64,000 nt of DNA from Candidatus Fermentithermobacillaceae bacterium (lineage in GTDB: Bacteria; Bacillota; Sulfobacillia; Fermentithermobacillales; DUSS01). The stretch lies in contig DYEQ01000072.1 of assembly GCA_020725645.1 (NCBI GenBank), positions 1 to 64,000 of the forward strand. Reading direction: 5' to 3'. Made by a program: the position numbers and the translations under genes. The notes beneath the pieces are model-generated. The model saw only the letters and a program-made list of their open reading frames with translations, searched no databases and was not told the DNA's origin. Shown here one piece after another: positions 52,992 through 59,043 of this stretch (within the stretch, counting starts at the first letter, position 1; each line of letters opens with the position of its first letter).

Positions 52992-54293
52992 CTAATCCGT
53001 TGTCCTGCCGTAGTTGTCATCTAACCTTACTACGTCATCCATCTCCGGAGTAGACGCTTCGTGAAGGACCAGATCCGTTCGGGCCCTGACCCTGTGGACA
53101 GTGCCCGGAGGGATGTCCACCGAAAGCCCCGGCTTAATCGGGATCTCCTCGCCGCCGAGGTACAGAGTTCCCTCGCCCGAGGAAAAGAACATCGTCTCAG
53201 ATTTCCGTTGGTGATACTGCAAGCTCAAAGAATGACCAGCGTTGACGTAGATGGTCTTCCCGGCGTACCTCGGGGTATGGGCCCACCATACCTCTTTGCC
53301 CCACGGTTTTTCCACCACTTTCGGCAAAGCTTCCGTCCTGTCCCGATTCATCTGAGGACCCTTCAAATACTCCTGACGGGCAAGCCATGCCGCGCCCAGA
53401 ATCGCCGCATCTACTCCCAGCGTGCTCACTACGTGCGGTATATCCCGCTTAGCTGGCAGAAACGCTCTCTTTTCCAGCTCTTCTTTGCACGCATCGAGAT
53501 AAAGCCGGAGAGCCAGGGGATTGCCCTTCGCCATTCCGCCGCCGAACACCGCAGCCTCAGGGTCGAGTACCGTGAAAACCTGGGCCAGACCCCGACCGAG
53601 AGCGCGACCGGCGGTTTGGAGAACATCGCGAGCTCTCGCGTCGCCCGAAGCTGCCAGCGCGAACACTTCCGCCGATGGCTTGCCGTAAGCCCTTTCGATG
53701 GCCGGACCGGCGGCGAGAGCTTCGACGCAACCTTTTCTGCCACAGCCGCAGAGGGGCCCATCCGGGTTCACCTGAACGTGACCGATCTCTCCCGCGCCTC
53801 CCCAATGGCCCCGGTAAAGCTCTCCGTTCAAGATGAGCGCTCCGCCGATCCCCGTGCCGAGCGTCACGTAGACGAAGTCCTCGAATTCCCTGCCCGCGCC
53901 GAACCTCCTCTCCCCCACCGCCGCGGCGTTGGCGTCGTTCTCGAGGGTAACCGGCACTCCCAACTCTCTTTCCAGGGCCCGAGCGATTGCGAAGCCCCTC
54001 CATTTCGGAAGATTCGGCAAGGCGAGGAGCTGTTGCTCTTTGATATCCAGAGGACCCGGCGCGCCCACTCCTACTCCCAACAGTTCCGCGTTTCGATCTC
54101 CGAGGGTTTGGTTAACACCCGAAACGATCTGACGTACCAGGGATGCGATGGATTTGATGCCTTCGTCGGGGTCGTCCCTTACCGTAGGGACGCTCACGGA
54201 AAACACCACCCGTCCCGGCTCGCCGGCCAGGACGGCCCCTATTCTGGTTTTTGTGCCTCCCAGGTCTATGCCGGCGAAAATCCCGTTCACCAT
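52992..54293 (-). CDS. ROK sugar kinase fused to a phosphomannose isomerase-type cupin
   Basis: 433 residues in two domains. Residues 1-305 are a ROK kinase: ATP motif GIDLGGTKTR (8-17), catalytic Asp in LENDANAAAVGE (D120), and the zinc site H172, C182, C184, C189 (CGCGRKGC). Residues about 325-433 match the cupin end of type II phosphomannose isomerase/mannose-1-P guanylyltransferase: EKPWGKEVWW, SLSLQYHQRKSE with Q359, H361, E366, IPPGTVHRV with H400, and the typical ending DDVVRLDDNYGR. One chain could turn mannose into mannose 6-P and then fructose 6-P. GH38 and GH4 genes nearby support a mannoside pathway. The kinase specificity is not proven. Confidence 0.9.
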   Translation of the reverse strand: MVNGIFAGIDLGGTKTRIGAVLAGEPGRVVFSVSVPTVRDDPDEGIKSIASLVRQIVSGVNQTLGDRNAELLGVGVGAPGPLDIKEQQLLALPNLPKWRGFAIARALERELGVPVTLENDANAAAVGERRFGAGREFEDFVYVTLGTGIGGALILNGELYRGHWGGAGEIGHVQVNPDGPLCGCGRKGCVEALAAGPAIERAYGKPSAEVFALAASGDARARDVLQTAGRALGRGLAQVFTVLDPEAAVFGGGMAKGNPLALRLYLDACKEELEKRAFLPAKRDIPHVVSTLGVDAAILGAAWLARQEYLKGPQMNRDRTEALPKVVEKPWGKEVWWAHTPRYAGKTIYVNAGHSLSLQYHQRKSETMFFSSGEGTLYLGGEEIPIKPGLSVDIPPGTVHRVRARTDLVLHEASTPEMDDVVRLDDNYGRTTD

Positions 54294-54610: not shown

Positions 54611-57600
54611 ATGAACAAAAACGAAAACGTTCTGCCGGAGCTGTTCATCGTACCGCACACGCACTGGGACAGAGAATGGTATGCTCCTTTCCAGGAGTTC
54701 AGACGAAGGCTCGTGAATCTCATCGATGAACTCCTCGTCATACTCGACGAGGACCCTGACTTTTCCCGGTTCACATTGGACGGGCAGACGATCGTCCTCG
54801 AGGACTATCTCGAGGTCCGTCCCAAAATGGAAAGTCGTCTTAAGAAAGCGATAGCTGCCGGGCGGATTGAAGTAGGTCCCTGGTACGTGTTACCCGACGA
54901 AAACCTGGTTTCGGGAGAGGCCATCATCAGAAACCTCGAACGGGGAGTGACCATTTCCCAACGGTTCGGGCGTCCTATGATGCTTGGATACCTTCCCGAC
55001 CAGTTCGGCCATATAGCTTCGATGCCGGAGATCCTGTCAGGATTCGGAATGGACACGACCTGCTTGTGGCGGGGCGTCGGCCAAGACGTGAACAGCCCCG
55101 TATTCGTCTGGGAAGGACCGAGCGGTGCCCGAGTTACCTGCATCTACCTTCCCTTGGGCTACGGAAACGCCGTTAACCTCCCCATGAATCCGGACGAGCT
55201 CCGCCAGGAAATCGATGACATCGTGAGAAAACTCCAAACATGGCACAAAGCATGTCCTCTGCAGGGTCTCCCCTATCTTCTCATGAACGGCTCCGATCAC
55301 CAGGAAGCCCAAAAAGGCCTTCCCGCCGCCTTAAAGTGGGCCCTCGACGGCAGAAGAACCTGGCAAATCGGCACTCTGCCAGAATATGCAGCTATAGTTC
55401 GAAGGCTGGTCGGCAAGGACGCGAGTCTTTCGGCGCATGTATTAGACGTTCATGAAGGTGAACTGCGTTCCCCGCTTCGCGCTCCCCTTCTCGTGGGGGT
55501 AACATCGGTTCGTCATTGGATCAAGCAGCGAGACTGGCAGCTTTCCCGCGATCTCGAGAAATACGCGGAGCCCCTTTCGGCACTGACGAGTCTCGCCGAC
55601 ACCGAACCTCCCAACTCCCAAGCTTACCTCGATGTCGCGTGGAAGTATCTCCTGCAGAACCAGCCCCACGACAGCATCTGCGGCTGCAGCGTGGACCAGG
55701 TTCATACCGATATGTCCTACAGGTTCGACCAATGTGAAATGGTCGTAAGAAAGCAAGTGGAAGAAGCGGGCAAAGCTCTGGCAGCGCAAGTCGACCGCTC
55801 TTTCGCAGGTGACCGGCCGGTCATCGTCGTTTATAACCCGGGCCCCGAGACGGACCAAGCTTTGGCCGAGGTGTCCCTGCGCGGCTTCCCGCCGGGAACG
55901 AACTACCTGGAAGATGCAGATGGGAACCTCTACCCGGTCCAGGTCAGGGCCGGCGGTTCCTCTATGATGCTCGAAGAAGACTTCTCTCCGAGCCAGATTC
56001 GTTTTTACTTTAGGTTCCTCAAAGGCCGCAAGTTCTTGAACTTCTACATAAACGACGCCCGCATTTCGTCGCCAGACTCCGGTTGGATCTTGCTGGAACT
56101 TGAAACGAGTGACCATCTCGAGGGAGACCTCGACGTCGAAGCTTTGAAGCGGGAACTCCTCTCAAGAATGGAAGCACAACCTCCCGGATTCAAAGTCCGG
56201 GTCCGAATCAGGACTTCCGGAGACCTCCAAGCTGTGTTTCGCCCGGGGCTCATGCCGTCGCTGGGGGTGAAGACCTTTGCCCCTGCTACAACCGCCAACT
56301 GGGGCCGAGAATCTGCGCCGAACGCAACGGCTTCGTCCGCAGACAGGAGCATTACACCTTCCCGCACGCCGAATAACGGGATCATACAGCCGGAAAACGC
56401 ACGGGGCACGCCCTCCTTCCCCTCGACCGCCGGCCGGCTTTCCGTCTCCAAAAGGCACCTTGAAAACGAGTTCTTCCGCGTTGAACTCACCAAAGACGGG
56501 TACTTCGTCGTGACCGACCTCCGAACAGGCGTGGTGTATCCTGCCATAAATCTCTTCGTAGACGGGGGAGACCGCGGCGATGAGTACAACTGGGACCCGC
56601 CGGCGTCGGACAAACTGGTAAGCCGGCCGGTCCGAAGTTTCCTACCCTTCCGGTGCCCGCTACGTGTGTCCATTGAGGAAAAAGGACCGGTACGGGCCAC
56701 CCTTCGAGTGGAGATGATTTACGCTGTACCCCGGGCTTTAGCCAGGGACAGGGACTCCAGAGACAAAAGGAAGGTTCCGCTCAAGATCATCACCAGGGTC
56801 TCCTTGGCGTCGGGAATCAGACGAATCGATTTTAAGACAACTGTGGAAAACCAGGCTCGGGACCATAGGCTTCGGGTGCACTTCCGCGTCCCGTTTATAG
56901 CGGAAAAATCCTATGCCGGCTGCCAATTTGCCGTGGTAGAAAGGAGCGTCCGTCCCGTGGCGGGCCTGAGCGAACCAACGCAGGCCGGCCAAACGACCCC
57001 CCCTGCCGAGACCCCGGTCGGTACCCATCCCATGCGGGATTTCGTGGACGTAAGCGACGGGACGAAGGGACTCGCCATCTCCACGAAGGGGCTCTTCGAG
57101 TATGAGGTGATTCCTGGAAAAGACTCGAGCGATCTCGCCATCACTCTGATGAGGTGCGTCGGGTATCTCTCCAGGCCCGACCTGCGTTTGAGGCCCGGAA
57201 ACGCAGGACCTGAAATCGAAACACCCGGTGCTCAATGCCTCGGCCGGTGGCCCTTTGAGTACTCGATTTATCCGCACGCCGGTCTCTGGGACGAATCTCG
57301 GGTGCATGCCTTCGCCCAAGCTTATCAGGCGCCTCCTCTGGCATTTCCGCCCGAAGAGCAGAAGAAAGCGCCGCGCATTCCGCCTGCAGCTGCTTTCTTC
57401 CACATCGATAACCCGGATCTCGTCTGGAGCGCCATGAGGAAGACCGCTGAAGGCGGCCTTCATCTCAGGTTTTATAATGTCTCGAACCGCCCGGGGCAGG
57501 CGAAGCTCGTGAGTCTCTTCCCGCTGCAGGAGGCAACCCTGGTAGACCTCGCCGGAAATCCCTTATCTCAGGCAAGTGGTCTGCCTTCGGCCAAGCTGAT

Positions 57601-57763
57601 CAACAATAACGCCGTTGAACTGCGCTACGGGCCGTGTCAAATCATCACCTTGAAGCTTTCGGCTGTGCAGGCCCCTCAGCCTCACGGAGCCGGCCGAATG
57701 TGCCCGCTTACATCTCAAGACGAAGTTGAACCATCGAAGAACTGCGGCAGAAACTCCCTGTGA
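54611..57763 (+). CDS. GH38 alpha-mannosidase
   Basis: 1050 residues. The catalytic domain has the zinc ligands H18 and D20 in PHTHWDREW and the nucleophile D130 in GYLPDQFGH. A late NGSDHQEAQKGLP gives the fourth ligand His. A three-helix bundle and a long beta-rich C-terminal half follow, as in the family. A Ser/Pro/Thr-rich linker (about 555-605) is unusual. No signal peptide, so it acts in the cytoplasm, perhaps on imported oligosaccharides or on phospho-mannosides as E. coli MngB does. It overlaps the GH4 gene tail to tail by 49 bases. Confidence 0.93.
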   Translation: MNKNENVLPELFIVPHTHWDREWYAPFQEFRRRLVNLIDELLVILDEDPDFSRFTLDGQTIVLEDYLEVRPKMESRLKKAIAAGRIEVGPWYVLPDENLVSGEAIIRNLERGVTISQRFGRPMMLGYLPDQFGHIASMPEILSGFGMDTTCLWRGVGQDVNSPVFVWEGPSGARVTCIYLPLGYGNAVNLPMNPDELRQEIDDIVRKLQTWHKACPLQGLPYLLMNGSDHQEAQKGLPAALKWALDGRRTWQIGTLPEYAAIVRRLVGKDASLSAHVLDVHEGELRSPLRAPLLVGVTSVRHWIKQRDWQLSRDLEKYAEPLSALTSLADTEPPNSQAYLDVAWKYLLQNQPHDSICGCSVDQVHTDMSYRFDQCEMVVRKQVEEAGKALAAQVDRSFAGDRPVIVVYNPGPETDQALAEVSLRGFPPGTNYLEDADGNLYPVQVRAGGSSMMLEEDFSPSQIRFYFRFLKGRKFLNFYINDARISSPDSGWILLELETSDHLEGDLDVEALKRELLSRMEAQPPGFKVRVRIRTSGDLQAVFRPGLMPSLGVKTFAPATTANWGRESAPNATASSADRSITPSRTPNNGIIQPENARGTPSFPSTAGRLSVSKRHLENEFFRVELTKDGYFVVTDLRTGVVYPAINLFVDGGDRGDEYNWDPPASDKLVSRPVRSFLPFRCPLRVSIEEKGPVRATLRVEMIYAVPRALARDRDSRDKRKVPLKIITRVSLASGIRRIDFKTTVENQARDHRLRVHFRVPFIAEKSYAGCQFAVVERSVRPVAGLSEPTQAGQTTPPAETPVGTHPMRDFVDVSDGTKGLAISTKGLFEYEVIPGKDSSDLAITLMRCVGYLSRPDLRLRPGNAGPEIETPGAQCLGRWPFEYSIYPHAGLWDESRVHAFAQAYQAPPLAFPPEEQKKAPRIPPAAAFFHIDNPDLVWSAMRKTAEGGLHLRFYNVSNRPGQAKLVSLFPLQEATLVDLAGNPLSQASGLPSAKLINNNAVELRYGPCQIITLKLSAVQAPQPHGAGRMCPLTSQDEVEPSKNCGRNSL

Positions 57764-59043
57764 GCTTCCAGAAGCTCATCCACGAGCTTTTCCGCGACCG
57801 CTTTCGAAGGCACCAGGGGATTTGTGGCCATTGCCTCTACGGCAAGAGACCTGTCCCCCTCAAGTGCAGCTTGGGCGTTGACGATTTCCGCCTCCTGGAT
57901 TCTCCTGATGAGGGTAGCCTGTTTTTCCGTTAGAGGAGGCACCGGGACAGGCCGCCACCCATCAGGACCGACGTCCGCGGGAAACTGCGCTGCGTGTCCC
58001 TGGGGAAGACCAGGCACGTTTCCTTCGTTTCGTTGTTGAATGATAAACCGGGCCCTTCGCCCTGAAAGAAGGGTCAGGATGACGCTGGCGGCCAGATCGC
58101 TGTGGGAAGCATGACCGCGGTGCATCCTTAACCGCGGCTTCGGGCTTGCCGCTTCTTTCTGGTAATAGGCATACAGCCTTTCTACCCGATCCATGAGATA
58201 CTCAGCCCGGGTCATTTTCACCTTCGACAGACGGGAGAAGACTATGTCGGTGTAATAGTAGTATCGCAGGTAAGGGTCGGGGAGCGAACCGTGTTCTTTC
58301 ACCAGTCTTATTGTGCCGAAAACCTCGCCGATCGGACGAACAAGAGAAGGAATCCACCTGGCCCACGAGCGGATCTTGGGCAGAACGTCCCTGACTTCCC
58401 CCTGTTCGCCCCGGGCGGGTTTAAGGTAAAGGTGATCAACCCATCCCGCGTGGTTGATACCCCGGTACTCCATCTCCAGTCTTGACGGTTCGACCCGCAA
58501 GAGCCTTGCGATTTCATGCTGAACCCCGCTGGGCTCATCGCACAGCGCGAGGAACCGTGCGTTCGGGTACTTCTTCAAAACCGCCTCGCATACCATCCCG
58601 GCGGGATTGGTGTACGATATGAACCAAAATCCCGGTTCAGCTCGCTTGAAAGCGGTATCCAGGAGGTCCATCACCACCGGTATAGACCGCCACGCGAAGC
58701 TCAGTCCTCCGGGTCCCACCGTCTCCTGTCCGATAACCCCGTGTCGGAGCGGGATACGTTCGTCGAGAGCTCGATGCCGGAGTCCACCGGGGCGCGGCTG
58801 AGCTAAAACAAATCTGGCCCCGTCAAGAGCTTCGTCCTTGTCAAGGGTATAGGTGACCTTTAGCTCGGCGCGAGCTTCATTTGCGAGAGCTTGCCCAAGC
58901 GATGCGATGATCCGTGCCGGTTCTTCGGCCACATCGTACAGGACCCAATACCAGCCAGCAAACAGATCCTTCTCCCGCAAGAGTGAAAGAAGGATGTCGG
59001 GAGTGTAAGCACTACCTCCCCCGACGATGGTAAGCTTGTTCAC
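57715..59043 (-). CDS. GH4 family glycosidase (6-phospho-beta-glucosidase-like)
   Basis: NAD- and Mn-dependent glycosidase of 442 residues. N-terminal NAD fold KLTIVGGGSAYTPDILLSLL; QETVGPGGLSFAWRS; metal Cys in ALCDEPSGVQ and His in GINHAGWVDHLY; C-terminal LVPSKAVAEKLVDELLEAH. The CDEPSG motif and INHAGW point to the 6-phospho-beta-glucosidase branch rather than alpha-galactosidase, with modest certainty. GTG start. Tandem 11-bp repeats lie in its upstream region. Confidence 0.92.
   Translation of the reverse strand: MNKLTIVGGGSAYTPDILLSLLREKDLFAGWYWVLYDVAEEPARIIASLGQALANEARAELKVTYTLDKDEALDGARFVLAQPRPGGLRHRALDERIPLRHGVIGQETVGPGGLSFAWRSIPVVMDLLDTAFKRAEPGFWFISYTNPAGMVCEAVLKKYPNARFLALCDEPSGVQHEIARLLRVEPSRLEMEYRGINHAGWVDHLYLKPARGEQGEVRDVLPKIRSWARWIPSLVRPIGEVFGTIRLVKEHGSLPDPYLRYYYYTDIVFSRLSKVKMTRAEYLMDRVERLYAYYQKEAASPKPRLRMHRGHASHSDLAASVILTLLSGRRARFIIQQRNEGNVPGLPQGHAAQFPADVGPDGWRPVPVPPLTEKQATLIRRIQEAEIVNAQAALEGDRSLAVEAMATNPLVPSKAVAEKLVDELLEAHREFLPQFFDGSTSS

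Follow-up and report, generated by a model that had tools for sequence, protein, structure and literature searches.

Background

ManC, AlgA, XanB and PslB are bifunctional proteins of polysaccharide synthesis in which phosphomannose isomerase (PMI) makes up one half. A C-terminal PF01050 cupin with the motifs PWG, SLQxH...E, PxxxHR and DD(I/V)VRxxDxYGR is joined to a nucleotidyltransferase (GDP-mannose pyrophosphorylase, GMPP). ROK hexokinases/glucokinases such as those of T. thermophilus (PDB 3vov) and S. griseus (3vgk) are without a cupin domain. In GNE, the UDP-GlcNAc 2-epimerase/ManNAc kinase, a ROK kinase domain (3eo3) is joined to a second enzyme of the same sugar branch. The PMI of Thermococcus (7zvy/7zvm) is unfused, as are the type II PMI cupins of picocyanobacteria and cyanophage S-SCSM1, small single cupins that have been assigned as PMIs (PMC9602691). 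In PslB, R408 is reported to be important for catalysis (PMC9602691). CBU0671 is a type II PMI that carries the canonical signature; it was active in vitro, yet did not complement a manA mutant (PMC3204966), so that motifs are no guarantee of activity in vivo.

Here we describe a gene in a 64,000-nucleotide stretch of DNA (the window) that joins a ROK kinase to a type II PMI-like cupin. The cupin shares its domain and motifs with the ManC group, and is likewise half of a protein that is probably bifunctional. In contrast to that group, its partner is a ROK kinase, its context is catabolic, and a Lys takes the place of the Arg at the R408 position. The cyanophage homologues are approximately 35% identical to the fused cupin, and the Thermococcus PMI is its closest solved fold at approximately 22% identity. 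The kinase half shares fold, zinc motif and catalytic Asp motif with 3vov and 3vgk; aligned by fold, it is 36% identical to 3vov. GNE differs from the fusion in that its partner domain is unrelated, its domain order is reversed and it belongs to the sialic acid pathway. Both halves of the new protein belong to known enzyme families, and to judge from the open-licence literature it is the combination of ROK kinase and PMI cupin that is new. No paper on a mannokinase-PMI fusion was found among the open-licence papers searched. A preliminary description of this DNA had put it forward as a fusion not known to be a described enzyme. We consider it likely that the protein is bifunctional, combining a hexokinase for mannose, and probably also for glucose, with a phosphomannose isomerase, and that it brings mannose into glycolysis.

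Structure of the fused gene

The fusion is encoded on the reverse strand at 52992-54293, as is every feature of it given below, in one open frame of 433 aa with an ATG start and no internal stops. The ROK kinase domain (aa 7-307; 53373-54275) is followed by a linker (aa 308-323; 53325-53372) and the cupin domain (aa 324-426; 53016-53324). Pfam placed ROK (PF00480) at aa 7-307 (E 1.3e-66), MannoseP_isomer (PF01050) at aa 324-426 (E 1.7e-8) and Cupin_2 at aa 350-407 (E 5e-10), all above the gathering cut-off. NCBIfam returned ROK kinase models and then the cupin end of GMP_PMI, all below their own cut-offs. An AlphaFold2 model, built from an alignment of the loci collected in this analysis, has two confident domains (mean pLDDT 93.9) and is weak only at aa 316-321, in the short linker, and at the C-terminal end; at a pTM of 0.75, the relative placement of the domains is not fixed by the model. 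The preliminary description of a complete ROK kinase with its zinc site, followed in frame by a cupin, is borne out by these matches, and every motif that it quoted was found in the protein, including DDVVRLDDNYGR.

The kinase half

The PF00480 match (225.5 bits; gathering 22.9) spans positions 2-293 of the 294 in the profile, i.e. its full length. The ROK motifs are kept, namely DxGGTK (aa 10-15), the catalytic-Asp motif of the NDAN kind (ENDANAAAVGE, aa 118-128; 53910-53942), ExGH (aa 169-172) and the CxCGxxGCxE zinc motif (CGCGRKGCVE, aa 182-191; 53721-53750); the catalytic-Asp and zinc motifs were located by both motif check and alignment. The ROK glucokinase model TIGR00744 scored 208.6 bits against a curated cut-off of 260.35, and the kinase was therefore not filed in that subfamily. 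The domain scored under the cut-off of every named NCBIfam kinase, the NanK and allose-kinase models being among those that match below it. Its best fold matches are ROK hexokinases/glucokinases (3vov, 2qm1 and 3vgk).

ROK sugar specificity is not readable from sequence, and the nearest solved relatives are broad hexokinases/glucokinases. ROK glucokinases have been described as acting on various hexoses (PMC5673643), and mannose is a plausible substrate of the fused kinase. Since no ROK match besides the fusion was detected in the genome, which is 90.55% complete, the substrates probably include glucose as well.

The cupin half

The cupin domain scored 35.1 bits against PF01050 (gathering 23.6). 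Against GMP_PMI (TIGR01479, ManC) it reached 39 bits where the cut-off is 372.95, with the cupin end alone matching, and Pfam found no match to the cupin phosphoglucose isomerase (PGI) family PF06560 in the fusion. The cupin model has a pLDDT of 94.9, and its first fold match is the Thermococcus PMI (7zvy/7zvm).

Q38, H40, E45 and H79 of the alignment (Q359, H361, E366 and H400 of the full protein) are invariant in 31 aligned cupins, the canonical ManC-type rows included, as is the C-terminal D..R..D..R (D99, R102, D105 and R109). By their position against other cupins, the Q/H/E/H residues are putative metal ligands. Three lie in SLQYHQRKSE (aa 357-366; 53196-53225) and the fourth in PPGTVHRV (aa 395-402; 53088-53111). 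VEKPWG stands at aa 327-332, and the C-terminal motif common to ManC-type cupins, DDVVRLDDNYGR, at aa 419-430 (53004-53039), was recovered by both alignment and motif check. Lys364 aligns with R408 of PslB, and this K form is nearly invariant across the subfamily. The assignment as a ManC-type isomerase cupin thus stands for the domain, whereas the motif is of a K type, SLQYHxxKxE, and not the textbook R type of ManC.

Distribution and origin of the fusion

The fusion was seen in five species of two families. Two Candidatus Fermentithermobacillaceae MAGs of the genus (DUSS01000003.1 and JADBKE010000003.1) have the same fused frame at 88-89% identity, and so do two genomes of another family (G058 and G066), in which the ROK domain is approximately 53% and the cupin approximately 60% identical. 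Its presence in these four other genomes rules out an assembly or frameshift artefact; the preliminary description had allowed for an assembly fusion, and the same frame in assemblies of two families excludes it. Codon changes between the window and a sister genome (G001) are mostly synonymous, in the kinase half and the cupin half alike.

In a tree of 40 ROK domains, the five fused ones form a single clade (support 100/97), and a single origin of the fusion, followed by transfer or loss, is the simplest reading. The fused cupins likewise group together, though less strongly supported (72/85), and two separate fusion events are not supported. A contig search, the reach of which is close relatives, returned the genus only and no fusion outside the class. 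A plasmid search gave three records in which one place spans 80% of the query or more; the ten matches listed include none of the three.

Genomic neighbourhood and other sugar isomerases

A gene for a GH38 alpha-mannosidase/mannosylglycerate hydrolase-like protein (54611-57763, forward strand) lies divergent to the fusion. The same arrangement is found in the window genome and its sisters (G000-G002) and again in the other family (G066). In a third family (G150), whose ROK is of a different lineage, the genes for cupin, ROK and GH38 succeed one another as an operon on one strand, with little or no space between them. The 16 kb examined around the fusion of G058 yielded no GH38 gene. The adjacent GH38 mannosidase of the preliminary description is therefore a neighbour whose linkage is kept in three families, although in the window it is divergent and not co-transcribed with the fusion. 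A GH4 family glycosidase gene (57715-59043) lies downstream of GH38, and is kept in both sister genomes.

Searched family by family, the genome gave no PF01050 match other than the fusion. Neither a type I PMI nor a type IV PGI/PMI was found there, and no second PMI was detected in G001 or G002; at 90.55% completeness, a further PMI could be missing from the assembly. Classical PGI (PF00342) was not found in G000-G002, and we weighed whether the fused cupin is the missing PGI of the genome; this candidate was lowered once a separate archaeal-type cupin PGI was found on another contig (L212 8297-9199; C108 of G000). Archaeal-type cupin PGI is described as specific for glucose 6-phosphate/fructose 6-phosphate (PMC12965863), so that no PMI candidate other than the fused cupin has been detected. 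Among 61 relatives, this PGI family occurs in 44, and classical PGI matches, mostly weak or partial, in seven.

Cupin pairings across the class

The cupin was matched at E ≤ 0.001 in 98 of 154 genomes, and the loci of strong matches were fetched and checked. By genome, the motif is of the intact K type in 86, of the canonical R type in three and degenerate in four. That the cupin might be a separate gene in homologues, which by the preliminary description would count against the fusion, is true of most relatives, but in several lineages this separate cupin adjoins a ROK gene, which supports a functional link. Eight genomes (G042, G060, G063, G078, G081, G082, G083 and G150) have a ROK gene on the same strand no more than 500 bp from the cupin, where chance would give approximately 0.2, a rough figure that takes each genome to have about three ROK genes; in G022 and G047 the ROK gene is somewhat farther away. 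In the tree, the ROK proteins of these ten genomes are distributed over four lineages, all outside the fusion clade.

The cupin is also joined to GMPP in five proteins (G017, G022, G050, G053 and G059) and to phosphomannomutase (PMM) in two, with the motif intact in G089 and degenerate in G057. GMPP and PMM are the enzymes on either side of mannose 6-phosphate, and with these and ROK kinases as partners, the fusions and pairings centre on that metabolite. The degenerate cupins occur in G056, G057, G142 and G138, the first three of which have a type IV PGI/PMI. This enzyme is thus present in three of four genomes with a degenerate cupin versus five of 86 with an intact K type (Fisher p ~0.002, indicative only, as kinship is ignored and the counts are not independent, G056 and G142 being of one genus). 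The pattern is consistent with an isomerase that may degenerate once a second PMI is available.

Proposed function and alternatives

We propose that the N-terminal ROK domain would phosphorylate a hexose (mannose, probably also glucose) with ATP, and that the metal-dependent C-terminal cupin would convert mannose 6-phosphate to fructose 6-phosphate, so that mannose freed by the neighbouring GH38 enzyme would reach glycolysis through one polypeptide. The activity, substrate range and metal given for the enzyme are those that we infer. Such a route had been put forward in the preliminary description, and it is partly supported, by the GH38 linkage in three families, the recurrent ROK-cupin pairing and the lack of any other detected PMI. 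That mannose 6-phosphate might be channelled between the two sites is speculation.

A ROK glucokinase whose cupin acts mainly as a phosphoglucose isomerase (glucose to glucose 6-phosphate to fructose 6-phosphate) would suit the three genomes of the genus, in which classical PGI was not found, as well as the ROK genes that stand beside a type IV PGI/PMI elsewhere (e.g. G056, G137, G140, G146, G148, G149 and G150) or beside a cupin PGI (G027). We hold this to be improbable, because an archaeal-type cupin PGI is encoded by another gene of the genome, the profile match of the fused cupin is to PF01050 rather than PF06560, and both the GH38 linkage and the GMPP and PMM fusions of the same cupin indicate mannose. 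The PF01050 match, the GH38 neighbours and the GMPP and PMM fusions, all concerned with mannose, also tell against a kinase and isomerase of some other hexose or derivative (e.g. fructose, allose or N-acetylmannosamine), which ROK kinases, spanning many sugars, and the sub-threshold NanK and allose-kinase matches would allow; we give this reading very little weight.

It is about as improbable as the glucose reading that the cupin is a catalytically dead domain with a regulatory or binding role that modulates the kinase. The Lys at the R408 position and the loss of the motif in several family cupins of other genomes would be consistent with this. However, the ligand set is unbroken in all five fusions, synonymous changes exceed replacement changes in the fused cupin as they do in the kinase, and a type IV PGI/PMI in most of the degenerate-motif genomes is what would be expected if the intact form is a working isomerase.

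If active as a hexokinase/PMI, the fusion would be a single-polypeptide path from free mannose to glycolysis, and would explain mannose handling in a class of Bacillota in which most genomes are without ManA. Another question that it would test is whether Lys can do the work of the catalytic Arg in type II PMIs. More tentatively, and with some doubt, the K-type cupin may be a distinct PMI subfamily that replaces ManA as the usual PMI of the class and serves as a plug-in, by fusion or pairing, for every enzyme that forms or consumes mannose 6-phosphate (ROK, PMM or GMPP), this intermediate passing between the sites of the ROK fusion. Natural fusions around mannose 6-phosphate offer a ready system in which to ask what such fusions gain.

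Additional cupin architectures

Three stand-alone cupins of one genus (L108 6741-7487, L050 7064-7699 and L052 7016-7765) have an N-terminal extension of ~100-140 aa; that of L108, the one scanned, had no Pfam match. In G089, the cupin is at the N-terminus of the phosphomannomutase (L115 6242-8089). The PMM-fused cupin of G057 (L061 5403-7103) is without the SLQxH motif, and a cupin on a GMPP-like frame in G056 (L062 6806-7813) has lost it, each in a genome with another PMI. A canonical R-type PMI cupin is joined to a glycosyltransferase in G033 (L063 5888-7264).
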